From the NCBI RefSeq assembly GCF_014203755.1, contig NZ_JACHJS010000001.1:806001-870000 (forward strand): a stretch of 64,000 nt of DNA. Direction: 5' to 3'. Below the pieces are notes generated by a model that ran no database searches, was not told the DNA's origin, and saw only the letters and a program-made list of their open reading frames with translations. The stretch comes from Saccharothrix violaceirubra (lineage in GTDB: Bacteria > Actinomycetota > Actinomycetes > Mycobacteriales > Pseudonocardiaceae). Each line of letters begins with the position of its first letter. Within the stretch, counting starts at the first letter, position 1. A program made the position numbers and the translations under genes. Positions 32,907-57,647 of this stretch are shown piece by piece.

Positions 32907-35069
32907 GTGTGGGCGCACAGTCCTGGCGCGGTGCCGGGTCGCTGGCATTCGTTGGCTGACCACGTGCGGTCGACTGCGGACCTGGCCCGTGCTTTTGCGG
33001 ATTCGTTCGGTGCGGGCGAACTCGCGTGGGCGCTTGGTTTATGCCATGACGCCGGGAAATGTGCTGATGAGTGGCAGCGCAAGCTGGCCAAGGTCGCGTC
33101 GACCGGGCAGAAGGTCGGGATCGACCACAGGAAGTTGGGGACGCTGCTCGTCCTGGACCGCGCCGAACTCGCGGCGATGGTGGTGCTCGGGCATCACGGT
33201 GGGCTGACCGCAGGGTCGCGGCTTCTTGAGTTGGAGTGGACCGCCGAGCGCACGGCCAACCTGGAGCGGTTCTTCGACGTGGTTCCCGAGGCGCGGGCCT
33301 TGCGCAGCGGGTCGTCGTTGGTGCCGGAGGAGTGGCGGGAGTCCTTCTCGGTCGCTGACCTTGGCGTCCGGCTGGTGTTCTCCGCGATGGTGGACGCCGA
33401 CCACCTGGACACCGCGGCCCACCGACGCGGGTGGTCGTCGCCGAGAGTTCGGCCACCGGTGGACATGGTCGGGTTGGTGCGGCGGTTCGAGCAGGGCCGG
33501 GCCCGGCTGATCGCCGAGCGGGGTGAGCCGTCGGAACTCGATGTGGTGCGGGGTGGGTTGTACGACGACGTCGTGCGGTTGGCGTCGGGTGTGCCCGGGG
33601 TGTACCGGTTGCCGGCTCCTACGGGCTCTGGGAAGACGTTGACGGCCGCTGGGTTCGCGTTGCATCACGCCGCGAAGCACGGCAAGTCACGGGTGGTGGT
33701 GGCGGTGCCGTTCACGACGATCACCGAGCAGAACGCGGACGTGTACCGGCGGGTCCTGGGCGCGGAGAACGTGTTGGAGCACCACTCGAACGTCGAGTTG
33801 GACGACTGGCGCATGAAGCTGTCCGCGGAGAACTGGGACGCGCCGTTCGTGGTGACCACGACCGTCCAGTTGTTCGACTCGTTGTTCGGACGCAAGCCCG
33901 CGCGGTCGCGGAAGGTGCATCGGCTGGCCAATGCGGTCGTGGTGTTGGACGAGGTGCAGGCGCTGCCGGTGTCGTTGCTGGTGCCGATCCTGGACGCGTT
34001 GAAGGTGCTGTCGAGTCGGTTCGGGACGACGGTGTTGTTGGCGTCGGCGACCCAGCCGAGTTTCGAGCACCTGAATGTCTGGCGGGATCTCGACGTGCGG
34101 CCGTTGGTCGACGCACCGGTCGAGTTGTTCGCGCGGCTGAGGCGGGTGCGCTACGAGTGGTGGTGCGATCCGCAGCCGACGCTGGAACAGGTAGCGGACG
34201 CGATCGGCGACGAACCTCGGGCTTTGGCGATCGTCAACACGGTCAAACAGGCCCGTGACCTGTTCCGGCTGGTCCGGTCCGACGCTGAGGTCGTCCACCT
34301 CTCGACGCGGATGTGTTCCCTGCACCGCAAGACGGCTCTCGATCGAGTGCGTGAACTGCTCAAGGGCGGCAAGGTGCTGGTGGTGTCGACCCAGCTCATC
34401 GAGGCGGGGGTGGACGTCGACTTCCCCGTGGTGTTCCGGGCGGTCGCTCCGGCCGAGTCGTTGCAGCAGGCGGCGGGGCGTGCAAACCGGGAGGGAAGGT
34501 TGCCCGAGCCGGGACGTGTGGTCGTGTTCGACGCCGTCGACGCGCCGGTTCCGAAGTTCTACCGGACCGCCGTGGACAAGACGCGGGCGTTGTTCGGCCC
34601 GGGACGTGATCCGGACGACCAGGCGTTGCTCGACGAGTACTACCGGAGCCTCTACACGGGGTTGAACGTCGACGATGCCGAGCGAGGTCGGGAGATCCAG
34701 AACTCCCGGGCCGACCTGGACTTCCAGGCGGTCGCCGACGGTCCCGAACGCGCCGACGGGAAGCGGGATCGCCGGTTGGCGTTCCGGATGATCGACGAGG
34801 ACCCGGTGTCGGTGATCGTGACGACCTACGGCCCGGAAGGTCACGCGGCAGGGTTGGTGGAGCGATTGCGTTCCGAGGGCGCGGCGGTGTTGCGCGAGCT
34901 GCGCCAGTACGTGGTGTCGCTGCCTCGTGAGTTGGCGCGGGCCGCGCACGTGCGGGCGTTGTGCCGGCCGGTGATCGCCGGTGCCGACGACCTGTGGGAG
35001 TGGGTCGGCGACTACGACCCGCACGTCGGGATCGACATCGAGCAGATCGGGAAGGACACGGTGTGGTGA
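32907..35069 (+). CDS. cas3: CRISPR-associated nuclease/helicase Cas3 (type I-C)
   Basis: A 720-residue protein that unwinds and degrades target DNA once Cascade has bound. The N-terminal HD nuclease has WHSLADHVRSTADLARAF, LCHDAGKCADEWQ and MVVLGHHGGL. The SF2 helicase follows: Walker A APTGSGKTLTAAGF (about residue 237), VVVAVPFTTITEQN, the DExH-like VVVLDEVQALP, SATQPSF, and motif VI QQAAGRANREG. GTG 32907 is chosen since GAGGGAG lies 10-16 bases upstream and homology begins at WAHSPG. First gene of the operon; its stop overlaps the cas5 GTG. Confidence 0.96.
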   Translation: MWAHSPGAVPGRWHSLADHVRSTADLARAFADSFGAGELAWALGLCHDAGKCADEWQRKLAKVASTGQKVGIDHRKLGTLLVLDRAELAAMVVLGHHGGLTAGSRLLELEWTAERTANLERFFDVVPEARALRSGSSLVPEEWRESFSVADLGVRLVFSAMVDADHLDTAAHRRGWSSPRVRPPVDMVGLVRRFEQGRARLIAERGEPSELDVVRGGLYDDVVRLASGVPGVYRLPAPTGSGKTLTAAGFALHHAAKHGKSRVVVAVPFTTITEQNADVYRRVLGAENVLEHHSNVELDDWRMKLSAENWDAPFVVTTTVQLFDSLFGRKPARSRKVHRLANAVVVLDEVQALPVSLLVPILDALKVLSSRFGTTVLLASATQPSFEHLNVWRDLDVRPLVDAPVELFARLRRVRYEWWCDPQPTLEQVADAIGDEPRALAIVNTVKQARDLFRLVRSDAEVVHLSTRMCSLHRKTALDRVRELLKGGKVLVVSTQLIEAGVDVDFPVVFRAVAPAESLQQAAGRANREGRLPEPGRVVVFDAVDAPVPKFYRTAVDKTRALFGPGRDPDDQALLDEYYRSLYTGLNVDDAERGREIQNSRADLDFQAVADGPERADGKRDRRLAFRMIDEDPVSVIVTTYGPEGHAAGLVERLRSEGAAVLRELRQYVVSLPRELARAAHVRALCRPVIAGADDLWEWVGDYDPHVGIDIEQIGKDTVW

Positions 35070-35725
35070 ATCGGGAGAGGCCGGCGGCGTCCGGCCCGCC
35101 GCCGGTCGTGGTGCAGGTGTGGGGTGACGCGGCGTTGTTCACCCGGCCGGAGTTGAAGGTCGAGCGGGTGTCCTACCCGGTGATGACGCCGTCGGCCGCG
35201 GTGGGCGTGCTGGAGTCGATCTACTGGAAGCCGCAGTTCTCTTGGCGGGTGGAGGCGATCGAGGTGTTGTCGGAGATCAAGCAGTTCACCCAGCGCCGCA
35301 ACGAGACCACGGACCTGGCCTCGTTGGCGGACGCCGCGTCCGGGCGTCGTCGGATCGACACGGTCGCGAACCGGGTGCAGCGCAATGCGGTCTGCCTGCG
35401 TGACGTCGCATACCGCATCCACGCCCAGGTGGTGCTCAAGCCGCACGCGGACCAGACCGAGGCCGCCTACCGGGCCCAGTTCCGGCGCCGGGTCACCCGC
35501 GGGAGTTGTTTCACCCAGCCCTACCTGGGGGTGCGGGAGTTCAGCGCCTACTTCGGCGACCCGGACGACCGCAAGCCTTTCCTCGACCAGGACGGTGAGC
35601 TGGGACTGATGCTGCACTCCGTCGACCACGGGACCACGCCGCCCGGCTTCACGTGGTTCGAGGCCAAGCTCGTGAAGGGCGTGCTGCACGTGCCGGAACA
35701 GGGCATCGACCCGGGAGCCGCCTGA
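35066..35725 (+). CDS. cas5c: Cas5c (Cas5d) crRNA-processing endoribonuclease
   Basis: A 219-residue RAMP protein. In type I-C it replaces Cas6: it cuts the pre-crRNA at the repeat hairpin and stays bound to the 5' handle. Visible family features: VVQVWGDAALFTRPELKVER, VSYPVMTPSAAVGVLESIYW, VNRVQRNAVCLRDVAYRIHA and the late RRRVTRGSCFTQPYLGVREF, which includes the glycine-rich/Tyr region. GTG 35066 overlaps the cas3 stop by GTGA; its stop overlaps the cas8c ATG as TGATG. Confidence 0.95.
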   Translation: MNRERPAASGPPPVVVQVWGDAALFTRPELKVERVSYPVMTPSAAVGVLESIYWKPQFSWRVEAIEVLSEIKQFTQRRNETTDLASLADAASGRRRIDTVANRVQRNAVCLRDVAYRIHAQVVLKPHADQTEAAYRAQFRRRVTRGSCFTQPYLGVREFSAYFGDPDDRKPFLDQDGELGLMLHSVDHGTTPPGFTWFEAKLVKGVLHVPEQGIDPGAA

Positions 35726-37491
35726 TGCTGGTGCGACGGTTGGTCGACCACGCCGCGTCCGACCCCGACAGCAAGCCGTTCCATCGGCGGCTGCGCTTCG
35801 ACTGGGAACTCGCCCTGACAGCGGACGGTGCGGCCCCCGGCGGACTCCAGCGCCTTATGGAAACCGATGCCGCAGGGCGTTCACGCGGCGTCGAACACCT
35901 GGTCCCGACCACGGTGCGCACGGTGGGGGTGGCGCCCAATCTGGCCGCCGACGACGTGCAGTACGTGCTGGGCTGGTCGGACGCGGACACGAAACCCGAC
36001 CGGGTGGCACGCTGCCACGAGGCGTTCGTCGACCTGACCCTGAGGTGGGCCGACAGTCCGGAGGCACAGGGCGACCCGGTTCCGCAGGCCCTGGCGCGGT
36101 TCTACCGTGACGGCCACGCGGAGGCCATGCCGCGTGTGGCCGAAGCCGGGGCCAAGCAACGCGTGCTGATCACGGTGAAGGGCGAAGCCGCCTACCGGGC
36201 ACGGTCGGTGCAGGCGTTCTGGTCCGCGGAAGTGGCGTCACGCAAGGGTTCCGGCGGACGCCGGGGGCTGTGCCTGTCGTGTGGCGTCAACGGGCCGCTG
36301 CTGGACACGTTGCCGGGCAAGGTCCCCGCGAAACTGGTGCCGGGGGCGTCGAACGACGCGGCGTTGGTCAGTATCAACGAGCGGGTGTTCGGCTACGACC
36401 TGAACGACAAGCTGATCTGTTCCCCGCTGTGCGTGTCGTGTGGGGAACAGCTCACCGCCGGGCTGACGCGCGTGCTCGCGTCTCGGGACACCGCCTCCTA
36501 CGGCGGTCAGGACAGTCGGCTCGCTTGGTGGATCACCAAGCCCGTTCGCCGCGACCCCATGCGGGTCATGGTCGAGGCCGATCCCGCCCAGGTGCGCGAA
36601 CTGCTCAACGACGTGCGCAAGGGGCGTCCGAGCAATCGGACACGGCGTCGCGATTCCGAGCAGAAGAGCGACATGACGAAGTTCTGCGCCTTGACTGTCG
36701 GCGGCAACGTCGCCCGCGTGATGGTCCGTGACTGGCTGGAAAGCCCGTTGGAGAAGATCGAGGACAACGCGGCGACCTGGTTCGAACAGGCACACGTCAT
36801 GGTGCTGCACCCCGACGAGTCGGAGTGGCACTCGCTGACCCGACTGGTCAGGGTCACCGGCCGGTGGCAGCGCGACCGCCGGCAGTACGTCCCGATCGGG
36901 GCCAAGGGAGCCGATCGTCCGGACGGCGTGCAACGCGACCTGCTGATCGCCGCGATGCGCGGCACGCGGTTGCCGCACTCCCTGACGATCCACCTGCTCA
37001 ACCGGGTCAGGACCGACGGCCACCTGGACACCCCGCGTGCCGCACTGCTTCGGCTCGCGCTGCTGCGCTCCCCCTCGACCACGGAGAAACCCATGCCCGG
37101 CCTCGACGAGACCAACACCAACTCCGCCTACGTGGCCGGGCGGCTGTTCGCCGCGCTCGACGCGATCCAGTACGACGCGTTCGAGGGCAAGGTCAACGCC
37201 ACCTACAGCCGACGCCACTTCCAGGGCGCGGTGACCAACCCGCGCGCGGCGTTGATCGCCGGCCGCAAGCTCGCCGACGCGTGGCTGCGCAAGTTCCGCG
37301 GTACGCGGGTCGGCACGGCGGTCAACCACAGCCGTGAACTCGACCGCCTCTACGGACTGCTCGGACCCGACAGCGACGTTCCCTACCACGCCACGCCCGA
37401 ACAGCAGTCGCTGTTCCTGCTCGGTTATCACCACCAGCGCGCCCACCGCTTCGAGACGGTGCGCCGACGCGCCGAAGAGCGCGACGCCTGA
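35725..37491 (+). CDS. cas8c: Cas8c (Csd1) Cascade large subunit
   Basis: A 588-residue subunit that recognises the PAM and recruits Cas3. N-terminus MLVRRLVDHAASDPDSKPFH; two zinc-binding CxxC pairs, CLSCGVNGPL (about residue 186) and CSPLCVSCGEQL (about 232); SRLAWWITK, AALLRLALLRSP and YVAGRLFAALDAIQ are typical Csd1 landmarks. Length is normal. In I-C systems an internal start in this gene often yields the small subunit Cas11c; the region after GRLFAALDAIQ (about 37140 onward) is the part that would encode it. Confidence 0.95.
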   Translation: MLVRRLVDHAASDPDSKPFHRRLRFDWELALTADGAAPGGLQRLMETDAAGRSRGVEHLVPTTVRTVGVAPNLAADDVQYVLGWSDADTKPDRVARCHEAFVDLTLRWADSPEAQGDPVPQALARFYRDGHAEAMPRVAEAGAKQRVLITVKGEAAYRARSVQAFWSAEVASRKGSGGRRGLCLSCGVNGPLLDTLPGKVPAKLVPGASNDAALVSINERVFGYDLNDKLICSPLCVSCGEQLTAGLTRVLASRDTASYGGQDSRLAWWITKPVRRDPMRVMVEADPAQVRELLNDVRKGRPSNRTRRRDSEQKSDMTKFCALTVGGNVARVMVRDWLESPLEKIEDNAATWFEQAHVMVLHPDESEWHSLTRLVRVTGRWQRDRRQYVPIGAKGADRPDGVQRDLLIAAMRGTRLPHSLTIHLLNRVRTDGHLDTPRAALLRLALLRSPSTTEKPMPGLDETNTNSAYVAGRLFAALDAIQYDAFEGKVNATYSRRHFQGAVTNPRAALIAGRKLADAWLRKFRGTRVGTAVNHSRELDRLYGLLGPDSDVPYHATPEQQSLFLLGYHHQRAHRFETVRRRAEERDA

Positions 37492-37518
37492 CATCCCCGA
37501 CCCAGGAGAACACCGCAC

Positions 37519-38406
37519 ATGAGCACGTCCCAGCCGCACCTCGACCCGACCGTCCGGCACGACATGGTCTTCCTGTTCGACGTCACCGACGGCAATCCCA
37601 ACGGCGATCCGGACGCCGGCAACCGGCCGCGGGTCGACGACGAGTCCGCGCAGGGCCTCGTCACCGACGTGGCCTTGAAGCGCAAGATCCGCGACACCCT
37701 CGCCCTCGCCGCGGGGGACGATCCCCGCTACGGGGTGTTCGTCCAGGCCGGGTACGCGCTCAACCCGAGGCTGGAGGAGTCCTACGAGAAGACCGGGTTG
37801 AAGCTCGGGACGAAGACCTCCCAGGAGGAGGCGGAGCGGGCACGGGCGTGGCTGTGCGACCGCTACGTCGACATCCGCCTGTTCGGCGCGGTGCTGTCGG
37901 TGGGCAAGACCGGTGCGCTGGGCCAGGTGCGCGGACCGCTCCAGGTCGGCATGGCCCGCAGCATCGACCCGGTCCTGCCGACCGATCACGCCATCACGCG
38001 CGTGACGCAGACCAAGCAGGAGGACATCGACAAGGGCGAGACGACCGAGATGGGCAGCAAGTGGACCGTGCCCTACGGCCTGTACAAGGTCGAGCTGTAC
38101 TACTCGGCGACCAAGGCGAAGAAGACCGGTGTCGACGCTCGTGACTTCGAGCTGCTGTACCGCAGCCTGGACATGATGTTCGACCACGACCGGTCGGCCA
38201 CCCGCGGGTCGTTGTCGCCGCGTGGTCTGTACGTGTTCAGCCACTCCGACGCGTTCGGCGCGGCTCCGGCCCATCGTCTGACCGGTCGCATCGGTGTGAA
38301 GCTGTACGACGGGTCGAGGCCCCCGCGCAAGTTCGACGACTACGTGGTGACGGTGGACGACCGCGACCTGCCGTCCGGCGTCACGTTGACCACGGTCATC
38401 GCCTGA
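37519..38406 (+). CDS. cas7c: Cas7c (Csd2) Cascade backbone subunit
   Basis: A 295-residue RAMP protein that polymerises along the crRNA spacer. Signature: HDMVFLFDVTDGNPNGDPDA (near residue 14), PRVDDESAQGLVTDVALKRK, IRLFGAVLSVGKTGALGQVR, GPLQVGMARSIDPV and RGLYVFSHSDAFG. ATG 37519 lies 27 bases after cas8c with AGGAG at 37503-37507. Full length and intact. Confidence 0.95.
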   Translation: MSTSQPHLDPTVRHDMVFLFDVTDGNPNGDPDAGNRPRVDDESAQGLVTDVALKRKIRDTLALAAGDDPRYGVFVQAGYALNPRLEESYEKTGLKLGTKTSQEEAERARAWLCDRYVDIRLFGAVLSVGKTGALGQVRGPLQVGMARSIDPVLPTDHAITRVTQTKQEDIDKGETTEMGSKWTVPYGLYKVELYYSATKAKKTGVDARDFELLYRSLDMMFDHDRSATRGSLSPRGLYVFSHSDAFGAAPAHRLTGRIGVKLYDGSRPPRKFDDYVVTVDDRDLPSGVTLTTVIA

Positions 38407-38410
38407 GCGG

Positions 38411-39020
38411 ATGGATTCCGGATCCGTTCCGATCTCGGCGTTGGAGCACTACGCGTACTGCCCCAGGCAGGCGGGGTTGATCCACGTCGACGGCTACTTC
38501 GAGTCCAACGTGGACACCGTCCGGGGTGACCTGGCGCACGCGACCGTCGACCGGCCGGGCCCGGACACCGACCGTCGGGGACATCGCGTGTGGCACTCCT
38601 TGCCGGTCTGGCACGACGAGCTGGGGCTGCACGGCATCTGCGACACCGTGCACCTGGCCGAGGACGGCCCCGTGCCGGCCGAGCACAAGTCGGGCGGTTA
38701 CCGCCCCGGCGGGCCGGCTGACCTCCAGGTGGCCGCCCAGGTGCTGTGCCTGCGCGAGATGTTCGACGCTCCGGTACCGATCGGCCTGGTCTTCACCGGT
38801 CGTGATCGACGGCGGCACGAAGTCGTCGTCGATCACGAGCTGGCCGACCGCGTGGCCCGGGCGACCGAAGAGATCCGGCGGATGCGCGACACCGCCGTCC
38901 TCCCTCCGCCGGTCGCCGATACCCGCTGCCGTCGCTGTTCGCTCAAACCCGGCTGCCTGCCGGAGACCACCGTGGCCGTGCGGGCCGGACTGTTCGTGCC
39001 CCGCGAGGTCGGAGACTGGG

Positions 39021-39028
<8 letters not shown>
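38411..39028 (+). CDS. cas4: Cas4 exonuclease of the adaptation module
   Basis: A 205-residue iron-sulfur RecB-like nuclease that trims prespacers and ensures PAM-correct integration. The N-terminal cysteine lies in SALEHYAYCPRQAGLIHV; the C-terminal cluster is CRRCSLKPGC. Nuclease residues: HGICDTVHLAEDG (Asp) and VPAEHKSGGY (Glu-x-Lys). ATG 38411 follows the cas7 stop by 4 bases. Its 3' end overlaps cas1 by 8 bases. Confidence 0.95.
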
Positions 39029-40327
<1,299 letters not shown>

Positions 40328-40464
40328 TGCCGCTGCTTCGGAACCCCAAGCGTGACCTGACACGCCGGGAGGTTCCGAAGCGGACGGCGGCGCGTCATCC
40401 CGTTCTGTGGGACGGGCAAAAGAGAGCCGGTCATGTATTCGCACTCTTCCCTGCTCAGGCAGGG
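40328..40464 (+). promoter_or_regulatory. CRISPR leader
   Basis: The 137 bases between the cas2 stop and the first repeat. As the degenerate repeat is at the far end of the array, this side is the leader, from which the array is transcribed and where new spacers enter. CATGTATTCGCACTCTTCC just before repeat 1 is the AT-richest part. Confidence 0.75.
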
Positions 40465-41661
40465 GCAGCGCGAGCCCTCCGGGACTCGCGAGGATCGCAA
40501 CCTCACCTCGGCCCCGGTTCGCGGTCGCTGGCGACCGGGGCAGCGCGAGCCCTCCGGGACTCGCGAGGATCGCAACCTCGACAAGGCGTCGGGCAAGCTC
40601 GCCCGCCGGCCGGCAGCGCGAGCCCTCCGGGACTCGCGAGGATCGCAACCTTTGTCGGTGCTCGTCACCCTGCACTGACGGGCGGCAGCGCGAGCCCTCC
40701 GGGACTCGCGAGGATCGCAACCGCTTTCCAGCACTCGGACGGGGTAACCCGAACGGCAGCGCGAGCCCTCCGGGACTCGCGAGGATCGCAACTCCGCGAC
40801 CACGGCGTTGACCGGAGCCGGGTTGGTGCAGCGCGAGCCCTCCGGGACTCGCGAGGATCGCAACTCGCACAGGCGAACTGGCAACGCGGCGGCGGCCGGC
40901 AGCGCGAGCCCTCCGGGACTCGCGAGGATCGCAACCGCTGCACCCAACGGCAATCACCCTGATCACTAGAGCAGCGCGAGCCCTCCGGGACTCGCGAGGA
41001 TCGCAACATCTGGTGCGTCGCCCACGAACCCTTACCGCGATGGCAGCGCGAGCCCTCCGGGACTCGCGAGGATCGCAACGACAAGGAGCACTCGGCGGTG
41101 AGCTGGGCCGACAAGGCAGCGCGAGCCCTCCGGGACTCGCGAGGATCGCAACGCCGAGCTGGACGCGCTCGACGTCCAGGACCGGATGGCAGCGCGAGCC
41201 CTCCGGGACTCGCGAGGATCGCAACCAGAACGCGCGCTCCGGCGCCGAGCAGAAGGGCTGGGCAGCGCGAGCCCTCCGGGACTCGCGAGGATCGCAGCTC
41301 TGACTGAACGCCCAGGCGGCCAGCGCGTGCGTGGCAGCGCGAGCCCTCCGGGACTCGCGAGGATCGCAACTACGAGTACCGGCGCGGTGGCGAGCGCGTC
41401 ACGGGGGCAGCGCGAGCCCTCCGGGACTCGCGAGGATCGCAACAGGTGGGATGCCTTGGCCTTGAGCCGGGTGTGGGTGGCAGCGCGAGCCCTCCGGGAC
41501 TCGCGAGGATCGCAACCTTGCGTAGCAAGGGAAAGCGGTCTGCCCTGCCCGTGCAGCGCGAGCCCTCCGGGACTCGCGAGGATCGCAACGCCATGACGGT
41601 GCGCGGCCGACAGGTCACCGCACGGCAGCGCGAGCCTTCCGGGACTCGTGTGGATCGCAAT
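40465..41661 (+). CRISPR. type I-C CRISPR array, 17 repeats of 37 bp, 16 spacers
   Basis: Repeats begin GCAGCGCGAG and end GAGGATCGCAAC; the inner GCGAG and CTCGC form the hairpin for Cas5c. Repeat starts: 40465, 40540, 40613, 40685, 40756, 40828, 40899, 40971, 41043, 41116, 41189, 41262, 41334, 41407, 41480, 41553, 41625. Spacers are 34-36 bp except the first (38 bp). Repeat 12 ends GCAGC instead of GCAAC; the last repeat has three changed regions (CCTTCC, CGTGTGG, CAAT), marking the leader-distal end. The first base may belong to spacers, giving 36-bp repeats, but G is present in all 17. Confidence 0.98.
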
Positions 41662-41974
41662 GGCTAACAGCTGGATACGGGGCTATGTGACTGGTGGGTA
41701 GCTTCAGTTCTTCGGGCTTGCGTGGTGTGCGGCTGCGCTCTAATCGTGTTCGGTTCGGCGAATGGGAGTTCCTATTCGTGTTCGGGTGTCAGTAGGTGGG
41801 TACCCGTCGAACGGAAAGCCAGCCTGCGTCTGGGTGCACGATTCGTGCGGGTGTTCCGTCGGTCGGGTGCGGGTGCTATCGGTTGACGGTGGAGGGTCCG
41901 TTGCCGTGTCCGGGTGGGTGACGGTTCCTTGCGTTTCGTGTCCACGTGATGGATCGAGACTGTCGGGGTGGCGG
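41662..41974. other. region between CRISPR array and HisRS-like operon
   Basis: About 310 bases. The HisRS-like frame is open back to 41762, but the extra 71 residues (MGVPIRVRVSVGGYPSNGKP...) show no homology and I treat them as leader. Direct repeats of CGTGTTCGG occur at 41747 and 41777. The operon promoter should be here; no confident -35/-10 was found. Confidence 0.45.
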
Positions 41975-43327
41975 ATGGGGTTGTCCGGTGTGCACACGCC
42001 GTTGGTCGGGATGGTCGACCTGTTCGGGCGGGAGTTGAGGAAGCGGCAGTTGGTCGTGGCCGTGTTGGCGAAGGTCGTTCGGCTTCACGGTTACGAGCAG
42101 GTCGAGGTGCCGTTGGTGGAGCGGGCCACGTCGTTCTCCGAGGAGGTCGTTGGGCGCTCGCCGTGGCCGGAGTGGGACAGTCGGGGGTGTTTCCACCTGA
42201 GGGCGCCCGATTACCCGTCCTCCTACGAGGACGCGCCCGATCACACGGATGTGCTCCTGGTGCCCGAGGGGACCATTTCGGTTACTCGCTGGATCGGTTG
42301 TCGGCTCGCGGAGAGTCCTGACATGATCTTTCCGGTGAAGTTGTTCTACGACATGCCGTGTTTCCGTAACGAGGTCGTGGCCGAGTTGACCGGGACGAAG
42401 AGGCGTCAGTTCACCCAGTTCGGTCTGGAGATACTGGGCGCCGAGCCGGGGAACTCCGATGTCGAGGCCGTCTACCTGATCACCCGGTGTCTGGAAGAGT
42501 TGGGTGTGGCGGCGGGTGGTACGCGGGTCCGGGTCGGTGACGTCGGGGTGTTCAATCGCCTGGTCGAGTTGAGCGGGCTCGGGCCGGACGCCGCGATCCA
42601 GGTCAAGGAGGTGCTCGACGCGATGGCCGAGTGCAAAGCCGGGAAGGCGCCGGAGAGGGCGTCCGGGCTGCTCGGACGGCTGGCCGGTGTGCTGGACGCC
42701 GGTGGTGTGAGCCGATTACCGCACGACGTGTGGATGGGGCTCGCCCATGCGGGAGATTCGGTGTCCTTCCTCCGCGCCCTGCATGACAGTGTGATCGACG
42801 AACGGTTGGACGATCTCGCGCGGCTCGTCCATGTGTTGGAAGCGCTCGGCGTCCGAGTGGAGACAGACCTCTGCGTCGTGCGTTCGCACGAGTATTACAC
42901 CGGGATCGTGTTCGAGATCGACGTCGTAACCGAGGAATATTCACACGTCGAGGTCGGTGGCGGCGGTCGTTACGACAAGTTGGTCGGCCACTTCGTTCCC
43001 GACGGCGGAGTCGACCGCATCCCCGCCACGGGCTTCGCGTTCGGTGTCGAACGCCTGGTGGAACTGCTCGATCATCTCGACCTCCTGCCCGCCCATCGAG
43101 TGTTGCGATCCTCGATCGGGTTGTCTGAGTCCTCTGCCGAGAAGTTGGTGGCTTCGGGGCCCGGTGCGCAGGAGTACCTTTCAGCGGTTCGGATCGCGGC
43201 GGCGGACCGGGCCGCGGGTCATCCGGTGGACATCTACCTCGGTGTGCCCGACCAGGTCGAGCGCTACGCCGAGAGCCGGAAGATCCCGCAAACCGTGAGC
43301 TGTGAGCCGCAGAGGGCCGATAGGTGA
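41975..43327 (+). CDS. divergent histidyl-tRNA-synthetase-like protein A
   Basis: A 450-residue class II aminoacyl-tRNA-synthetase-fold protein. Motif 1 region VDLFGRELRKRQLVVAVLAK; motif 2 DMPCFRNEVVAELTGTKRRQ with the class II Arg; HisA-like loop CVVRSHEYYTGIVFEIDVV (usual RGLDYYTGTVFE); motif 3 ATGFAFGVERLVELL. The C-terminal 80 residues only weakly resemble an anticodon-binding domain. ATG 41975 (MGLSGVHTPLVG) begins homology. Compared with housekeeping HisRS the motif 2 loop and HisA motifs are altered, so a role outside translation (histidine activation, HisZ-like, or biosynthetic) is likely. It overlaps gene B by GTGA. Confidence 0.85.
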   Translation: MGLSGVHTPLVGMVDLFGRELRKRQLVVAVLAKVVRLHGYEQVEVPLVERATSFSEEVVGRSPWPEWDSRGCFHLRAPDYPSSYEDAPDHTDVLLVPEGTISVTRWIGCRLAESPDMIFPVKLFYDMPCFRNEVVAELTGTKRRQFTQFGLEILGAEPGNSDVEAVYLITRCLEELGVAAGGTRVRVGDVGVFNRLVELSGLGPDAAIQVKEVLDAMAECKAGKAPERASGLLGRLAGVLDAGGVSRLPHDVWMGLAHAGDSVSFLRALHDSVIDERLDDLARLVHVLEALGVRVETDLCVVRSHEYYTGIVFEIDVVTEEYSHVEVGGGGRYDKLVGHFVPDGGVDRIPATGFAFGVERLVELLDHLDLLPAHRVLRSSIGLSESSAEKLVASGPGAQEYLSAVRIAAADRAAGHPVDIYLGVPDQVERYAESRKIPQTVSCEPQRADR

Positions 43328-44598
43328 AGATCGACAACAGTCCGCCGCGTGGTACCCGTGATCTGCTTCCCGACAGTGTCGCCACACGTGACCACGTCCT
43401 GGCGAAGATCGGCGAAGTGTATCGCCGCTTTGGTTACCACCGGATCGAGACGCCCGCTTTGGAGGACATCCGGCGGCTGCAAGGCGGCGAGGGCGGCGAG
43501 AACGAGAAACTGATCTTCCAGGTCCTCAAACGCGGCCTCGACGACGAGACCGCCGCGGGCACCCGGACCCGGGACCTGGTGGATCTCGGGTTGCGGTTCG
43601 ATCTGACGGTTCCCCTGGTGCGGTTCTACGCCCATCATCACGCGGCATTGCCGACTCCTTTCCGGGCATTCCAGTTCGCACCGGTCTGGCGGGCCGAAAG
43701 GCCGCAGAAGGGCCGCTACCGGCAGTTCCACCAATGCGACATCGACCTGATCGGCGACGCGTCCGTGCTGGCCGAGGTCGAGTTGATCGAGGCGACGACC
43801 GAGGCCCTGGACGCGGTGGGGATCACCGACACGACGGTGCGCCTGTCCGACCGGCGTTTTCTGTCGGCACTGGCGGCGCATGTCGGGCTGGAAGAACCGG
43901 CGTGGCCCGGGTTCTTCATCGGCTTGGACAAACTCGACAAGATCGGGTGGGACGGTGTGCGTGCCGAGTTGGTCGACAAGCGCGGACTGCCCGCCGCGGC
44001 GGTGGACCAGTCCCGGACGATCATCGAGGGACTGATCGGGCTCGACGCGGACAAGGTCGCCGACCGGCTCGCCGACGCAGTGCCGGCACTGCCCGAGGCC
44101 GTCGTAGCGGACATGGCGACTACAGTGGAATGCCTGGCCGAGTTGGGTAGGACGCGGGCAGTCGGGTGGGAGTTCGATCCCACGTTGGTGCGGGGTATGG
44201 GCTACTACACGGGCCAGATCTTCGAGATCTCACACCCGAAGTCGTCCTCGTCCGTCGCGGGCGGCGGGCGTTACGACAAGCTCGTGGGCCGCTCGCTGGG
44301 CAAGGACATTCCGGCGTGCGGGTTCTCGTTGGGCTTCGAACGGATCGTCGACCTGATAACCGAGGCTCCCGCCCGTTCGGCGTTGGCGGTGCTGTTCGAG
44401 CCGGACGTGCCGATCTCGCACGCGTTGGAACGCGCGCGGCAATCGCGTGCCGAGGGCAGAGAGACCACGGTGGTCCGGCGCAGCGGAAAACTCCCCGCCC
44501 AACTCACCCGTCTCGAGGGGCAGGGGTTCACCGGGGTGGTCCATCTCAGGGACGCCGCGGCCGTCGAAGCGGAGCGTCCGTTGGGCGGGGTTCGTTAG
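43324..44598 (+). CDS. divergent histidyl-tRNA-synthetase-like protein B
   Basis: A 424-residue class II synthetase-like protein, closer to HisRS than its neighbour. It starts VKIDNSPPRGTRDLLPDSVA; motif 2 is WRAERPQKGRYRQFHQCDID (canonical); HisA-2 motif LVRGMGYYTGQIFEIS; GGGRYDKLVGRSLGKDIPA; motif 3 GFSLGFERIVDLI. The C-terminal 75 residues look like a shortened anticodon-binding domain. GTG 43324 overlaps the stop of gene A. Together the two could form a heteromer, one subunit keeping catalytic residues. Its position in a prenyl-synthase operon argues for a specialised function. Confidence 0.87.
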   Translation: MKIDNSPPRGTRDLLPDSVATRDHVLAKIGEVYRRFGYHRIETPALEDIRRLQGGEGGENEKLIFQVLKRGLDDETAAGTRTRDLVDLGLRFDLTVPLVRFYAHHHAALPTPFRAFQFAPVWRAERPQKGRYRQFHQCDIDLIGDASVLAEVELIEATTEALDAVGITDTTVRLSDRRFLSALAAHVGLEEPAWPGFFIGLDKLDKIGWDGVRAELVDKRGLPAAAVDQSRTIIEGLIGLDADKVADRLADAVPALPEAVVADMATTVECLAELGRTRAVGWEFDPTLVRGMGYYTGQIFEISHPKSSSSVAGGGRYDKLVGRSLGKDIPACGFSLGFERIVDLITEAPARSALAVLFEPDVPISHALERARQSRAEGRETTVVRRSGKLPAQLTRLEGQGFTGVVHLRDAAAVEAERPLGGVR

Positions 44599-44618
44599 AT
44601 CCATCCGGGAGGCCGGCG

Positions 44619-45689
44619 GTGCCCGAGGCGTTCGACCGACTCAGCCCACGCTTGGCGGAGCTTTACTCTGCGGTGCTCGCCAGGGAGTTGGCGGACAGTC
44701 CCGAACTGGCGCCGCTGCACGACGCCTACACCGAGTACGCCCTGCGCGACCGGCACCTGCCGCGGCCTGTGCTGGCGTACTTCGGCTTCCACGCTTTCGC
44801 CGATGCGGTGGACTATTCCGACGTCGACCGCATCGGCGAGGCGTTGATCGTCCCGCAACTCCTGCGGGACGTGCTGGCCATCCACGACGACATCGTGGAC
44901 GAGGACCTGGACAAGTTCGGTGCGCCACCACTGCCGGTGGCGCTGTCGGGTGCGGAAGGACGACTCACCCGACGGGGCAAGGACTTGGCGCTCTACTACG
45001 GGGACTTCCTGGTCGGCGTGCTCCACCGGGTGGCGTCGGGTGTTCCCGGTGAGGCCGGTCGTTCGTTGGTGCGGTTGATCGCGGACACGCTCTACGTGAA
45101 TCAGCGCGGCCAACTCGCCGAACTGCTCGCCGAGACGAAGCCTCTGGCCGAGACCTCCGTCGACGACCTGCTGGTGATCGGGGAACGCAAAGCAGCGCAC
45201 TACTGCTATTCGTTCCCGTTCCGCGTGGGAGCGGTGCTGGCCGGGCACGACGGGCGTCGGATCGAGCCGGTTTGCCGTGTACTGCTCAAGATCGGTACCG
45301 CGTCGCAGGTCGTGGACGACATCACCGGGACGTTCCCGGGAGTGGTCGACCACGACAAGGACACTCTCGGTGAGATCGCGAACCTCCGTCGCACTGTGCC
45401 CTTGGTCCTACTCGCGACGGGGCGGCATTCGGAGCGCGCGGCGGCGTTGCTCGCGGCTCCGACACCACTGCCGCCGGACGACGCCGCGAGGCTCCGGGAG
45501 GAATTGTGGTGCGGTGACGTGCCCGACCGGGCGTTGACGCTCGGGCGGGGATTGGTCGACGACATCACGACAGGACTGGCCCGGCTCGACCTGGGGCGCG
45601 CGGCGGCCCGCTACCTGGACGATCTTGTGGCGTACCGGCTGCGGGACAGCCTGGACAGGTTCGAACGCGCGATCGGTCGATCCCGTTGA
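44619..45689 (+). CDS. trans-isoprenyl (polyprenyl) diphosphate synthase
   Basis: A 356-residue all-helical enzyme that condenses isopentenyl diphosphate with an allylic diphosphate. The first Asp-rich motif is intact (LAIHDDIVDEDLDKFG, DDxxD). The second reads QVVDDITGTFP, i.e. DDxxG rather than DDxxD, followed by KDTLGEIANLRRTVPLVLL. Other landmarks: RRGKDLALYYGDFLVG and ERKAAHYCYSFPFRVGAVLA. GTG 44619 follows GGGAGG by 6 bases, 20 bases after HisRS-like B. The chain length made cannot be read. Its stop overlaps the TTG of a small lipoprotein-like gene. Confidence 0.9.
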   Translation: MPEAFDRLSPRLAELYSAVLARELADSPELAPLHDAYTEYALRDRHLPRPVLAYFGFHAFADAVDYSDVDRIGEALIVPQLLRDVLAIHDDIVDEDLDKFGAPPLPVALSGAEGRLTRRGKDLALYYGDFLVGVLHRVASGVPGEAGRSLVRLIADTLYVNQRGQLAELLAETKPLAETSVDDLLVIGERKAAHYCYSFPFRVGAVLAGHDGRRIEPVCRVLLKIGTASQVVDDITGTFPGVVDHDKDTLGEIANLRRTVPLVLLATGRHSERAAALLAAPTPLPPDDAARLREELWCGDVPDRALTLGRGLVDDITTGLARLDLGRAAARYLDDLVAYRLRDSLDRFERAIGRSR

Positions 45690-45844
45690 GGGGAATCTCG
45701 TTTCGACAACATCTCGGGGTGATCTTAGCGCTGCTTTTGGTCGTCCTGTTCGGCTGTAGAAAGGCGCCGGAAGAAGGAGAGCCCGTTCCACCGCTCACCG
45801 GCCAGGTCTCCTCGTACGACTCGTATCCACCGAGCAGTCGGTGA
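45686..45844 (+). CDS. 52-residue lipoprotein-like peptide, end of the HisRS/prenyl operon
   Basis: TTG 45686 overlaps the prenyl synthase stop (TTGA). The peptide begins LRGISFRQHLGVILALLLVV and then LFGCRKAPEEGEPV, giving a signal segment ending in a lipobox-like VLFGC, so lipidation of the Cys at residue 24 is expected. The mature part (RKAPEEGEPVPPL ... SSYDSYPPSSR) is short, proline- and serine-rich with two tyrosines. The overlap and the textbook lipobox argue that it is real. It could be a membrane-anchored accessory peptide or a substrate of the operon's enzymes; that is inference. Confidence 0.6.
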   Translation: MRGISFRQHLGVILALLLVVLFGCRKAPEEGEPVPPLTGQVSSYDSYPPSSR

Positions 45845-46219
45845 GCTGGCCAGCGGACCGACTGTCGGCCTCCAACCCCGTTGCAGCGGTCGCGGATCAC
45901 GAACCCACGTTGTTCCGCCACGTGCGGTCTACGCGACAGACCTTTGATGCGGATGTCCGTGCCTGATCCAGTGGAGGACTGATGCGTAGTTCGAGTGAAC
46001 TTGTTGGTCGACCTGCGGCCTGTCAGTGCCTCGTCAGGTCTTTGACCTGGTCAAACGTGAGATTGCCGATCCGGCAATTGGGCATCGATGTGTCTTGAGT
46101 CACAACGTGATCCGCTTGGTTGATTATGGACTGCATGTGCAGTCAGCCTCTGCTCGTCGGGGGCGTGCTTCGTCAAGGAGCGTGCATGGGGCCAGGGGGT
46201 CTCTTTGTCTGTCCGCCGC
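45845..46219. other. gene-free region with an operator-like palindrome
   Basis: About 375 bases between the lipoprotein and the toxin remnant. ATTGCC-GATCC-GGCAAT at about 46062-46078 and GACTGCA-TG-TGCAGTC at 46129-46144 are perfect inverted repeats. AT-richer sequence (GGTTGATTATGGA) between them suits a promoter. No coding frame recognised. Confidence 0.45.
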
Positions 46220-46802
46220 ATGGCGGCGCGTAGTTGGTCGCTGCGCGCCCTGAGTTGGTTCGTGTCGTTGGCGCTCGTCCTGGGGGCCTCGACGCTATTG
46301 TCGATCCGGTCGGCCGTGGCCGAGCCGGCGTGCACCACGGTCGAGCAGGACGCTGCCGTTGCCGTGGATGTGGCACGCCGTTGCGACGCCCGTGTCGAGA
46401 TCGGGTCCGCCCGCACGGAGACGGCGCAGACCTTTGCCCGACCCGACGGCGGCTTCTCGACCGGGGAGTCCCCGACTCCCCGGTGGGCGCGGAAACCTGA
46501 TGGTTCCTGGGCCGACGTCGACGTCACGTTGATGCCTTCGGCGGACGGCTCGATCTCACCGAAGGTGTCCGTGTTGCCGATTGTCTTCTCCGGCGGCGGC
46601 ATGGGTCCCGTGGCGCTGGTCCGTGACAGCGACCGTGAGCTGGCGTTGACCTGGCCCGGTGGTGCTCTGCCGGAACCGGTGCTGTCCGGGGCGGACGACC
46701 TACCCCGAGGTGCTGCCCGGTGTCGATCTGCGATTCACCGCGTCAGTACCAGTTTGGTATGCGGGATCCGCGACCCCGATCGTTCTGAAAGGAGTGAGAT
46801 GA
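46220..46802 (+). pseudogene. N-terminal head of a secreted polymorphic toxin (RHS/DNRLRE type)
   Basis: ATG 46220 (TTG 46205 is also possible) opens a signal peptide (LSWFVSLALVLGASTLLSI), then ARRCDARVEIGSARTETAQT, ARPDGGFSTGESPTPRW, DGSWADVDVTLMPSADGSIS, LALTWPGGALPEPVLSGA. This is the standard start of very large actinomycete RHS/polymorphic toxins. A one-base frameshift near 46698 moves the homology to TTYPEVLPGVDLRFTAS, and then it ends at a stop overlapping the Imm1 start. The remaining 1500 or more residues and the toxin domain are gone. Confidence 0.75.
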
Positions 46803-47317
46803 CGCCGATTCTCAATGTGGCCGTTCATGGCAAATATGAATACGCGGACTACTGGGGCGGAATGTCCGCGTTGATCACGGAGGTCGTCGAGAATTTGAAG
46901 TCCGAGCGAGTCGACATGCCGTGGATTGATCCCGGTGAACAGGCGTGCTTCATGTTCGCGGACGGTCGACACTTCGCCGATAATCGTGATTGGTGGCCTG
47001 ACAACTACCTTTACGTGGCGGTCAACCGGTCGACCGGATATGGCGGTTTGACGTGGATGGCCGGTGGTGAACGCGCCCTCAACGGGAGTGATGGGATTTC
47101 GGATGGCATCTGGGTGAGTGATAACGCTTCGTTTCCGGATTTTGACCCGCGTGTGGTTTCCGATCCGGGATTTCCGCTCTTCTACGATCCGCGTAGTACG
47201 GTTCCGATTTCGCAGGTGCGCCTCGTTCTGGAGAATTTCTGCAGTGCCCGTACGGGGGATCGGCCTGACGGCATCGAATGGGTTCTCGGTGAATTGAACG
47301 GTCAGCGTGTAGAATAG
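46799..47317 (+). CDS. orphan Imm1-family immunity protein
   Basis: A 172-residue soluble protein: MTPILNVAVHGKYEYADYWG, WIDPGEQACFMFADGRHFAD, YLYVAVNRSTGYGGLTWMAG, ERALNGSDGISDGIW and CSARTGDRPDGIEWVLGEL. These are the conserved parts of Imm1, partner of SCP1.201-type deaminase toxins. ATG 46799 has AAAGGAG 5-11 bases upstream. It follows a truncated toxin head directly, so the cognate toxin has been deleted while immunity was kept. It may give protection against sibling toxins. Confidence 0.75.
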   Translation: MTPILNVAVHGKYEYADYWGGMSALITEVVENLKSERVDMPWIDPGEQACFMFADGRHFADNRDWWPDNYLYVAVNRSTGYGGLTWMAGGERALNGSDGISDGIWVSDNASFPDFDPRVVSDPGFPLFYDPRSTVPISQVRLVLENFCSARTGDRPDGIEWVLGELNGQRVE

Positions 47318-47404
47318 AATCGCGCAACGATGTCGACCTCGAATATGCGAGGTTTCGCTGTTGTGCGAGCGCTGATGCGTTCTGCGGACGGGTAGGCCAC
47401 TTGT

Positions 47405-47605
47405 TTGGCTCACTTACTGGCAGTGGGTGAAGACTTCGTGGAGGAAGGTTGGTACGTGTGGCGGGGGAGGCTGAATGTCGCGGGTAACGGTCAGGCGGGC
47501 TACTGGGGGGTCGACATTAACGGTAAGATTGGCCACTTCGGGCCTTTCGGTGGGAGTTTGCAGATCGGTATCGACGTGTTCGAGACAGCTGAAATCCGCT
47601 TCTGA
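47405..47605 (+). CDS. small hypothetical protein, first of a coupled pair
   Basis: A 66-residue frame from TTG 47405: LAHLLAVGEDFVEEGWYVWR, GNGQAGYWGVDINGKIGHFG and IDVFETAEIRF. The glycine- and aromatic-rich beta pattern resembles the C-terminal tip of a larger toxin domain, so this could be the surviving end of a deleted toxin. Its stop overlaps the next ATG (TGATG), the arrangement expected of a toxin with its immunity gene. Family not recognised. Confidence 0.45.
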   Translation: MAHLLAVGEDFVEEGWYVWRGRLNVAGNGQAGYWGVDINGKIGHFGPFGGSLQIGIDVFETAEIRF

Positions 47606-48150
47606 TGACACTTTTTGAAGATCTTTCCCCGCTTGACCTCCTCTCGCTGTCCCGTGCGTTGTTGTCGGAGGAATTTGCGGCTGCGGAGCTTACCCCTTTT
47701 GATTGGCTGGGCATCGTCGAAATGCTGGAGGGGAGTCTGGTCGATAAATGTCAAGATTTGACTCCGAGAGAGTGGTCCGTCTGCGTTCTGGCCCTTGCAC
47801 GCTCCCATGCCTCGGCAGTTGATTCGGGAATTCTCGACGATCGTGAAGTACTCGTGCGCAGGTTGAATCTCGGCGCGGTCCTGACCCGCGGCGTCCCGGT
47901 CAGTCGCGAGTTCGAGATCCTGAACCCCGATGCTTTGATTGCCGAACTTTTCCGGAAATTGCCCATGACGATCGATGAAGCCAGGAGAATGTCGGCCGAT
48001 TGGCGAAGTCTGGAAATTTCGCAGATTCGAGTACTGCGCTCTGTCAAGAATCTCGTGACGCCGGCTGTTCAGCTTGCACGCGTTGCTCCGGGTACTGCGT
48101 GGTTGCCGATGCTGCGGTTGTGGGCGGATATTCTGCCGGACTTGCCATGA
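47605..48150 (+). CDS. hypothetical (immunity-like) protein, second of a coupled pair
   Basis: A 181-residue helical soluble protein: MTLFEDLSPLDLLSLSRALL, LTPFDWLGIVEMLEGSL, LTPREWSVCVLALARSHASA, LVRRLNLGAVLTRGVPV. GC is lower than in most of the window, as in toxin-immunity islands. ATG 47605 overlaps the preceding stop. The context (toxin head, Imm1, coupled small gene) makes an immunity role plausible, but no known immunity family was recognised. Confidence 0.6.
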   Translation: MTLFEDLSPLDLLSLSRALLSEEFAAAELTPFDWLGIVEMLEGSLVDKCQDLTPREWSVCVLALARSHASAVDSGILDDREVLVRRLNLGAVLTRGVPVSREFEILNPDALIAELFRKLPMTIDEARRMSADWRSLEISQIRVLRSVKNLVTPAVQLARVAPGTAWLPMLRLWADILPDLP

Positions 48151-48240
48151 TGGCGGATAGGGATCAGAGCCCGTCCGCTCGTCGTGGTGATCAGGGTTGC
48201 TGGCCGTGTACGACGCGGGCACCTGTCGGGTGCCACTGAG

Positions 48241-48303
48241 GATTTCAGTACGGCACCACCACTTTTCAGTGGACATTGCAGTGGACGGCCAAGATTTCAG
48301 TAC
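48241..48303. repeat. repeated TTTCAGT motifs upstream of tniQ
   Basis: GATTTCAGTAC occurs exactly twice (48241-48251 and 48293-48303), with a third TTTCAGTGG between (48264-48272) and CAGTGGAC repeated after it. The cluster sits about 50 bases before the TniQ-like frame. Short directly repeated motifs of this kind are characteristic of transposase-binding ends of Tn7/Tn5053-like elements. Confidence 0.55.
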
Positions 48304-48352
48304 CCGGCGAGTCGCGACGAGCGGCTGACCCGGGCCGGGTATCTCTGCACCT

Positions 48353-49430
48353 GTGTTCGCCTGGCAACAGGACCGGCGTCGGCTTCACGAGGCCGCCGAC
48401 CGGGCAGAGGCAGCTAAGGAGGTTCAGCGTGAACAGGAGGAGGCAGTCCGTGCGGCCTTGCCCCTGTGGGCTCGGGACGGGCGGCTGAGATCCGGGCGGT
48501 TGGCGTGCGTCCCGGTTCCACACGAAGGTGAGGCGTTCACTTCGTGGGTCGCTCGTTCGGCGGACACGCACATGATCGCGATCGACCGGATGTTGAGGAA
48601 CCTGGGACTGCCGTCCTCGGTGTCCGCAGTACGTATGGGCGTGGAGCTGACCGCTGAGCGCTTGGAATCGGTGACGGCCGCGACCGGCCTCCAGGAGCAG
48701 CAGGTGCAGGCCATGCTGCTGACGAGCGCGGTGAAAACCCGTCGCCGCCTGCTGACCTGGAGCTGGAACCGGTCGAGTCGTCGTCCTCCGTGGCCGCTAC
48801 GGGCGACCGGTTCGGCGGTATGCCCCGAGTGTGTCGCACAGGAGCCGACGATCTGGGAGCGGGACTGGAGGTTCCTGACCGTCGTTGCGTGCATCGAGCA
48901 TCGGCTCTACCTGCACAGTTGGTGCCCTTCCTGTCGGGCACCCATCCAGATCGGCCACCAGTCGCGGTATCTGGACACCTGCGCGGTGCCGTCGGCCGAC
49001 TTCGTACGGCGCCGATCGCTCGACGGAAGGTGGAGTCGACGGAACCCTCGGGTGAGGACTCGTAGTGTGGTCGGGTGCGGTGCGCGCTGGGACGAGTTGC
49101 CTCGCTACCCGGTCGCCAATGACCGGGTTCTGGCCTTGCAGGATGTGCTGACCGGGCGGTTGAGTGCGGCCGACCTGTCTCCTGGCTACGGATACGACCT
49201 GCACATGGCGCTGAGGCTGGCGGTGCAACTCGGTCAGCGTGGCACCGCAGGGTGTCGCGCCGACCGCGCACCTTTCCGAGGTGGACGGGACACCACAGTC
49301 CGCCGAGGCGGGTTGGCTGCCGTGGGGACGGGTCGACCGGCAGCGGCGGCGTTGGGAACTCCGGCGGAGAAACCTGCTGATGAGGCCGGTGTTCACGGTC
49401 GAACCAGGCGGTCGGGCATCACTGTGATGA
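48353..49430 (+). pseudogene. TniQ-family transposition protein, 3' end damaged
   Basis: From GTG 48353 the frame has a charged N-terminal helix and then the TniQ domain: VPVPHEGEAFTSWVARSADT, a zinc-ribbon VCPECVAQEPTIWERDWRFL and CIEHRLYLHSWCPSCRAPIQ, then DRVLALQDVLTGRLSAADLS. Around 49235 coding signal jumps to another frame (VAPTAHLSEVDGTPQSAEAG, then RQRRRWELRRRNLL) which stops at 49427, while the original frame runs on as antisense of the next gene. TniQ helps target-site choice in Tn7-like transposition; no TniA/TniB genes are present. Confidence 0.65.
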
Positions 49431-49451
49431 CCATCCTTCCGCCGGCCGCGG

Positions 49452-50072
49452 TCAGAGTTCGTCACCGCATCGGACGCAGAAGCCGAAGATGCCGTCGACG
49501 GCGACCCGTTGGCAGCCGACGCAGACTTCCCCGCCGCAGTGGTAGCAGGTCATGGAGGCGCTGTCGGCGAGATCGAAGTAGAGCCCCGGGTTCGCGCGTC
49601 GCATCGCCAGCTCGGTGGACTCGCAGGCGTCGGGGCAGCGGCCGTCCGGGCCCGCGTCGCGAAGAGGAGGGAACACGGTGCAGCGGGTGTAGCGGCTCAG
49701 GGGGGAGTGGTCGAGCTGGTCGGTGCAGCCGTTGGGACACGGCCAGTTCTGGGGTCGCAGGACGAGCGGGTCGCAGAGGTGGCACGAGCCGGCGGCCTGC
49801 CCGCGGCCGGGATGGGCCGGGCACTCCCGCTTGAGGGGGAAGTCCCGCCCGGAGGTGGGGCCGATGTAGCCCGGAGGGGTGTATCGGTACGCGCAGTTGT
49901 AGCAGTCGACCTGTTCGGCCCAGGCGGTTCCGTCGTCCGGGATCCTCGCCCGGTCGGGCCGGATAACGGACCCGCAGACTGTGGTGCGACCGTCGGTGCT
50001 GATGTGAATCCGGCCGCTGCGCCAGCGGACGAGGACGACGTCCGGCGGTCGTTGGTGTTCCTGGACTGCCAT
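49452..50072 (-). CDS. cysteine-rich zinc-ribbon hypothetical protein
   Basis: A 206-residue protein, MAVQEHQRPPDVVLVRWRSG, with many CxxC-type pairs: CYNCAYR, CHLCDP, CPNGC, CPDAC, CYHCGGEVCVGC and CVRCGDEL at the very C-terminus. This spacing suggests three or four structural zinc sites, so it may bind nucleic acid or protein. ATG 50072 is preferred over 50093. No known family. It lies downstream of the XRE/APH pair on the same strand, about 100 bases away. Confidence 0.65.
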   Translation of the reverse strand: MAVQEHQRPPDVVLVRWRSGRIHISTDGRTTVCGSVIRPDRARIPDDGTAWAEQVDCYNCAYRYTPPGYIGPTSGRDFPLKRECPAHPGRGQAAGSCHLCDPLVLRPQNWPCPNGCTDQLDHSPLSRYTRCTVFPPLRDAGPDGRCPDACESTELAMRRANPGLYFDLADSASMTCYHCGGEVCVGCQRVAVDGIFGFCVRCGDEL

Positions 50073-53494: not shown

Positions 53495-53513
53495 ACCGGG
53501 GGAGGAGGTGGGG

Positions 53514-57619: not shown

Positions 57620-57647
57620 CCTCGCACCACCACACCGGAAGGACACG

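Follow-up and report, generated by a model that had tools for sequence, protein, structure and literature searches.

What would an actinomycete gain by keeping, in a single operon, two relatives of histidyl-tRNA synthetase (HisRS) and an enzyme built like a prenyl diphosphate synthase? The question is raised by a locus of Saccharothrix violaceirubra (Pseudonocardiaceae) contained in a 64,000-nucleotide stretch of its genome (assembly GCF_014203755.1, contig NZ_JACHJS010000001.1, positions 806,001 to 870,000 of the forward strand), which is referred to here as the window and numbered from its first base; the genome itself comprises 7.35 Mb in one contig. The answer tentatively preferred here, at slightly less than even chances, is that the first gene (A), together with the prenyl-synthase-like gene (C) and tailoring enzymes that vary between loci, makes a histidine-derived metabolite, and that the second gene (B) encodes a spare HisRS protecting the producer.

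The operon exists, and its conserved core consists of three genes on the forward strand. Gene A (41975–43327, 450 amino acids, P0001) overlaps gene B (43324–44598, 424 amino acids, P0002) in a GTGA junction, and gene C (44619–45689, 356 amino acids, P0003) follows B after a 20-base gap. The initial annotation of this DNA, made from its letters alone, had described a four-gene operon, and both its junctions among A, B and C and the motifs that it reported (class II motifs 2 and 3, RSHEYYTG, RGMGYYTG, DDIVDED and DDITG) were verified in the window. The fourth member did not hold up: the doubtful 52-amino-acid open reading frame (ORF) at 45686–45844 of the same strand, read as a lipoprotein-like peptide, matched no family and had no counterpart in the 21 fetched loci (19 distinct, Umezawaea included; best tblastn E value 0.73). 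This ORF is probably not part of the unit, and the membrane-peptide step proposed with it is left without support, the peptide not being conserved. Purifying selection acts on A, B and C, with ratios of nonsynonymous to synonymous substitution rates (dN/dS) of 0.25, 0.08 and 0.17, respectively, relative to the copies in Umezawaea, whose C protein is 76% identical to that of the window. A search for an RNA leader at Rfam gathering thresholds returned only tRNAs in 14 loci and nothing at all in window positions 38000–50000.

Gene A, a HisRS Derivative

The protein encoded by gene A falls below the cut-off of the hisS profile (163.7 against 286.75) and belongs to a clade that is separate in the tree (support 100/100, branch 2.13). 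The alignment of catalytic residues with HisRS and HisZ, which had been recommended as a check, revealed that the HisRS site is retained in A, since the equivalents of E83, T85, R113, Q127, E131, R259, Y264 and R311 were present in all 65 rows (64 distinct); the HisZ side of that comparison comprised two rows and is taken up below. The tRNA-facing PQxGR loop of motif 2 was missing from the same 65 rows, and A further departs from HisRS in the replacement of GLD by SHE, in an SPWPEW loop and in a shortened C-terminal domain. Moreover, a carrier-protein domain is fused to two relatives of A (P0045 and P0201), and another HisRS gene accompanies A in all 13 genomes examined. Only A, and not B, appears to have left translation.

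Gene A is rare everywhere. Profile searches recovered it from one of 394 genomes of the class (the window's own), from six of 345 of the order of Murinocardiopsis and from two of 332 of the phylum of Azambacteria. The A protein had no match in a plasmid collection at 1e-20, and the DNA search of plasmids was also empty. P0045 and P0085 matched 14 and 37 plasmid records, respectively, and the matches listed (14 of 14 and 20 of 37) were 24–30% identical, the annotated ones being hisS or hisZ; the source of P0085 itself assigns this protein to a Streptomyces plasmid, so that carriage on plasmids is possible. Pattern scans of viral contigs found no relative, and a single phage record matched at 24%.

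Gene B, a Second HisRS

Gene B passes the cut-off of the hisS profile TIGR00442 (295.9 bits against 286.75), as did all six of its relatives scanned. The histidine- and ATP-site residues and the PQxGR loop of motif 2 were kept in 13 of 13 rows, with aspartate in place of E83 in 12 and in place of E131 in all 13, as occurs in some HisRS. In the tree, 11 of the 13 rows formed one group (100/99), and the second synthetases of two Patescibacteria loci grouped with ordinary HisRS. The window genome possesses a separate hisS (C1:4890206–4891117), which excludes A or B as its only HisRS.

The distribution of B is far wider than that of A in the family of the window. A profile search over 390 Pseudonocardiaceae genomes returned 79 of them at E ≤ 1e-110, of which 61 scored at least 535 bits and 18 scored 370–380 bits. 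Gene A was found in only three of these 390 genomes (complete in G000 and G383 but divided in G377), and seven other family matches of the A search proved to be solo B genes, that is, B without A. Outside the family B is rare in the class: scores above 480 bits occurred in only two of 103 genomes, the window's own and one other. Among 23 genomes hand-picked from the 61 to cover the known relics and 15 genera, 17 (97–100% complete) had no HisRS above the cut-off except B, three of them with a further HisRS-like match below it, and the remaining six had at least one other HisRS. Since this clade provides the sole HisRS of 17 of 23 relatives, one of them with an 83%-identical B, gene B very probably encodes a working second HisRS; the relatives on which this prediction from sequence rests are 64–83% identical to it.

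The initial annotation had regarded both synthetase-like proteins as altered alike, noting in B a changed loop, RGMGYYTG, and a shortened anticodon domain. This view could not be maintained for B, given its score, its residues and its clade's role as sole HisRS. RGMGYYTG occurs in all 25 rows (24 genes) of the B comparison, and therefore neither the motif nor the shorter C-terminus means that function was lost.

Two observations on gene content were made in passing. Solo B genes of Pseudonocardiaceae (L082–L086 and L088) are often flanked on one side by a LigD-polymerase gene and on the other by genes encoding a small membrane protein, MsrB and a DUF692 protein, names that were read off the sequences with no family scan. 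Nocardiopsis metallicus (L053) harbors four HisRS-like genes: besides A and B it has an ordinary one and a second hisS of archaeal-like type.

Gene C, a Prenyl-Synthase Fold with an Altered Side

Gene C encodes a protein of the trans-prenyl-synthase fold (PF00348) with the DDxxDxD motif and a second aspartate pair, the latter being ND in one of 30 rows. The motifs GGKxxRP and RRG form the isopentenyl diphosphate (IPP) side of trans-prenyl diphosphate synthases. In C, both GGKxxRP and the RR pair that follows the first aspartate motif were missing from 30 of 30 rows; of the four other prenyl synthases of the window genome, three have GGKRxRP and one AGKAIRP, and all four have the RR pair. The allylic-diphosphate site is kept in this protein, and the usual basic motifs of the IPP side are missing. 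The second motif, DDITG, had been singled out as the oddity of this enzyme; DDLLG at that position in three of the four other synthases of the genome makes it ordinary, and the unusual part is the IPP side.

Linkage of the Genes across Phyla

Linkage was evaluated in 14 loci: the 12 with a full-length A among 18 recovered by scanning species genomes, plus the window and Umezawaea. Four scan loci that were cut or broken (L029, L030, L032 and L033) and two short matches (L034 and L035) were left out, and the scan used two exact peptide patterns, so that the number of loci is a lower bound. These loci span four phyla, Actinomycetota, Bacillota, Planctomycetota and Patescibacteria, the last counted as one. 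A HisRS gene lay beside A in all 14, and in 12 of them, from three phyla, it was of the B type, as judged by the tree in ten and by scores of 340 and 336 in L020 and L021. In Daviesbacteria, the HisRS beside A scores 281.7, slightly short of the hisS threshold, and there is a second one at a distance of 6.4 kb. No HisRS besides the one next to A was found in the assemblies of Christensenella and Azambacteria, for which completeness was not given.

Gene C was present in ten of the 14 loci (the window, Umezawaea, Murinocardiopsis, four Nocardiopsis, a Bacillota metagenome-assembled genome (MAG), a Christensenella MAG and Daviesbacteria). The genes are arranged A-B-C and codirectional in the window, Umezawaea, Murinocardiopsis and Christensenella; the Bacillota MAG has the order C-A-glycosyltransferase-B, and in Nocardiopsis A and C are met by B converging from the opposite strand. 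In addition, 13 of 45 C clusters had a longest contig equal in length, to the base, to that of one of 88 A clusters, against about 0.3 expected by chance, a figure derived from the 12 cluster pairs that lay within 20 bases without being equal. The genes that had caught attention in a single genome are thus conserved together elsewhere.

The other neighbors differ from locus to locus. Among the loci without C, a methyltransferase was observed for a Dactylosporangium MAG; Planctomycetota had a B12 radical SAM enzyme and a GNAT protein, Svornostia an amidohydrolase and Azambacteria a trypsin-like protease, probably unrelated. An FkbM methyltransferase adjoins C in Murinocardiopsis. The 311-amino-acid neighbor of B in Nocardiopsis matched no Pfam family and no solved structure, and a kinase reading of it, suggested by a motif, was unsupported.

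Relic Loci in Which B Survives

Gene B outlives A and C, because four relic loci keep it intact with A, C or both broken or gone. In G062, from the same genus as the window, an intact B is directly preceded by the C-terminal 75 residues of A (56% identical), and an ordinary hisS is also present. In G017, B is intact, 82.7% identical to that of the window and accompanied by no other HisRS in the genome; with one mismatch, the 33 bases preceding it match the end of gene A at the corresponding position (score 30, against at most 12 in 300 shuffles). G387 has another HisRS and an intact B, behind which C lies in fragments, and in Streptoalloteichus (G377) B is intact and A is split over two contigs. 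Around the other 19 of the 22 solo or relic B loci no remnant of A or C was detected by profile scan, for which the G017 tail is itself too short. In a tree including 20 solo B rows, the A-linked B genes of the window and Umezawaea fell among the solo ones; the A-linked genes of Streptoalloteichus and Murinocardiopsis joined the same larger group. The bootstrap of this tree is rough.

Proposed Pathway and Its Weak Points

Under the preferred reading, A would adenylate histidine or a close imidazole amino acid, as its invariant active-site residues suggest, and may pass the acyl group to an acceptor other than tRNA, to which the carrier-protein domain fused to two relatives would correspond. 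C is predicted to bind an allylic prenyl diphosphate with metal; because its allylic site is kept and the usual IPP-side motifs are missing, it probably prenylates the product of A or makes its prenyl donor. Tailoring would vary by locus: some loci have methyltransferases, a glycosyltransferase, a B12 radical SAM enzyme or an amidohydrolase that either accompany C or take its place. B would be a functional spare HisRS, as its relatives indirectly indicate, and the likeliest reason for a spare is self-protection: the product would inhibit HisRS, and B would tolerate it. Self-protection would explain a working HisRS that travels with A across phyla and outlives it. A pathway of amino-acid activation plus an isoprenoid step, as initially proposed, remains a sensible reading, and the remark that no described pathway has this combination agrees with the literature searched, in which no description of such a unit was found.

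A more specific version holds that a HisRS was turned into a natural-product enzyme whose histidyl-adenylate-like or prenylated histidine product inhibits HisRS, and that the HisRS of the same operon is the immunity gene, having become the sole HisRS in some Pseudonocardiaceae. This version is possible and somewhat more doubtful than the general one.

Several observations weigh against a metabolite protected by B. Of the 61 family genomes in which B scores high, 58 have no A; B is therefore not tied to A, and self-protection leaves these 58 unexplained except by later spread or takeover. In two Patescibacteria loci, A adjoins a HisRS of the ordinary type and not B, a pairing that self-protection does not explain and that speaks for a partnership instead. 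A more divergent A in another Patescibacterium (L081) adjoins a dimethylargininase-like gene, and the 16.5 kb retrieved there contain no HisRS, which self-protection would not predict either. The window unit holds no carrier protein, and none turned up close to A in the loci fetched. The 33-base match of G017 may partly represent the ribosome-binding region of B itself. Finally, the contrast between A and HisZ is weak, because one of the two HisZ rows compared keeps most of the active-site residues and HisZ structures match the model of A nearly as well as HisRS structures do.

If the more specific version were true, such pathways would form a class represented in at least four phyla. A would join HisZ as a HisRS paralogue with another role, with its active site intact and present in many phyla, often under the public name of HisZ or HisRS. 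If B were the immunity copy, the unit would point to a natural HisRS inhibitor and provide a means of tracking it down. The relic loci, for their part, would be a natural instance of a cluster-borne synthetase apparently taking over as the sole HisRS of the cell.

Alternative Explanations

The alternative that survives best, rated unlikely, is that A works with HisRS, either as an A-B heterodimer or by using the histidyl-tRNA or histidyl-adenylate of B, the neighboring HisRS thus serving catalysis rather than protection. The presence of a HisRS gene beside A in every full-length locus, of the ordinary type in Patescibacteria, agrees with such a partnership, as does a tRNA-His gene that in Azambacteria (L026 7786–7858) immediately precedes A and the one further HisRS gene that this assembly has. 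HisRS is a dimer, which makes a heterodimer easy to picture. However, B works alone as the sole HisRS of many genomes devoid of A and stays intact after A is lost, and in Nocardiopsis it is encoded on the opposite strand.

It is improbable that B is a passenger or a matter of dosage, that is, a second HisRS unlinked to the product and placed beside A by common cluster descent only. The many family genomes with B and no A would fit this explanation, whereas the persistence of the B type beside A in 12 of 14 loci and three phyla, despite changing gene order, and the rarity of B in the class outside the family would not.

Very little probability is given to A being a HisZ-like or other regulatory relative of HisRS and no enzyme of a new pathway. 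Many relatives of A are labeled "ATP phosphoribosyltransferase regulatory subunit" by NCBI, and the residue and structural likenesses to HisZ noted above point the same way; residues and fold alone are undecisive. HisZ identity was rejected on the score of A against the hisZ profile (156.1, cut-off 271.65) and on the form of HisG, and the company of C and tailoring enzymes also speaks against it. Long-form HisG needs no HisZ, and the single PF08029 match of the window genome, a long-form HisG, lies about 1.6 Mb from the unit, short forms having received no separate search. The initial claims that no hisG adjoins the unit and that it has no HisZ role are thereby borne out.

Equally slight is the probability that each of the two proteins, A and B, is simply an ordinary HisRS. 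Both match PF13393, and B exceeds the hisS cut-off; A is far below it, lacks the PQxGR loop in every row and coexists with another HisRS gene in each of the 13 genomes.

Remotest of all, an accessory role in the adjoining CRISPR-Cas or another defense system, suggested by the 17-repeat array that ends about 0.3 kb before A and by an array next to the broken A of Streptoalloteichus, was rejected, since the latter has a different repeat and Cas type, arrays occur in only two of the 21 other fetched loci (both being that Streptoalloteichus locus), and PADLOC gave no match for A, B or C.

Surroundings of the Unit

The array upstream of A and a set of type I-C CRISPR-Cas genes (cas3, cas5, csd1/cas8c, cas7, cas4, cas1 and cas2) occupy window positions 32562–41689. 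The Streptoalloteichus array lies beside the N-terminal piece of the broken A (L016 10677–11723) and has Csb1-type cas genes; its position may be accidental or mark a shared hot spot. Directly after the unit in the window, a 370-amino-acid ORF with an Imm1 immunity-protein domain occupies 46205–47317, and a TniQ-domain ORF, possibly a transposon remnant, 48353–49834. An FxLD-type lanthipeptide cluster follows at 53508–58874, comprising LanB (N and C domains) and an FxLD methyltransferase (TIGR04364, 388 bits). A homologue of this methyltransferase is encoded in Murinocardiopsis (L018 4197–5444), about 4 kb ahead of A.

Comparison with Known Systems

Among known systems, HisRS itself (TIGR00442) is the closest to B, which is like it in passing the cut-off, in active site, in motif-2 loop and in serving relatives as sole HisRS. 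A shares with HisRS the fold and the histidine- and ATP-site residues, and differs in its score, in the PQxGR loop, in SHE for GLD, in the SPWPEW loop and in the C-terminal domain. With HisZ (TIGR00443), the regulatory subunit of short-form HisG, A has in common a HisRS ancestry and a shortened C-terminal part, and it differs in scoring below the cut-off and in belonging to a genome whose HisG is of the long form and does not adjoin the unit.

C resembles the trans-prenyl diphosphate synthases of PF00348, such as FPPS and GGPPS, in fold, in DDxxDxD and in the second aspartate pair, and is unlike them in the missing GGKxxRP motif and RR pair. Fungal prenyltransferases of the PaxC type, which have the same fold, may parallel C more closely.

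In the part of a review drawn on here, HisZ is the only HisRS paralogue with another role (PMC9437257). The same source describes the amino acid:carrier protein ligases, class II synthetase homologues derived from AlaRS, GlyRS and SerRS (PMC9437257). A is comparable to them in having a synthetase core without the tRNA-binding parts and in the carrier domain fused to two of its relatives, and unlike them in deriving from HisRS and in having no carrier protein in its unit or in the fetched loci.

Spare resistant synthetases are exemplified by IleRS2 with mupirocin, TrpRS1 with indolmycin and SerRS2 with albomycin (PMC9437257). The table of that review, in the part drawn on here, holds no HisRS case, and resistance of B is putative. 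B is nevertheless like these enzymes in being a second functional synthetase that sits by presumed biosynthetic genes, the biosynthetic role of A and C being a putative one, and that outlives them.

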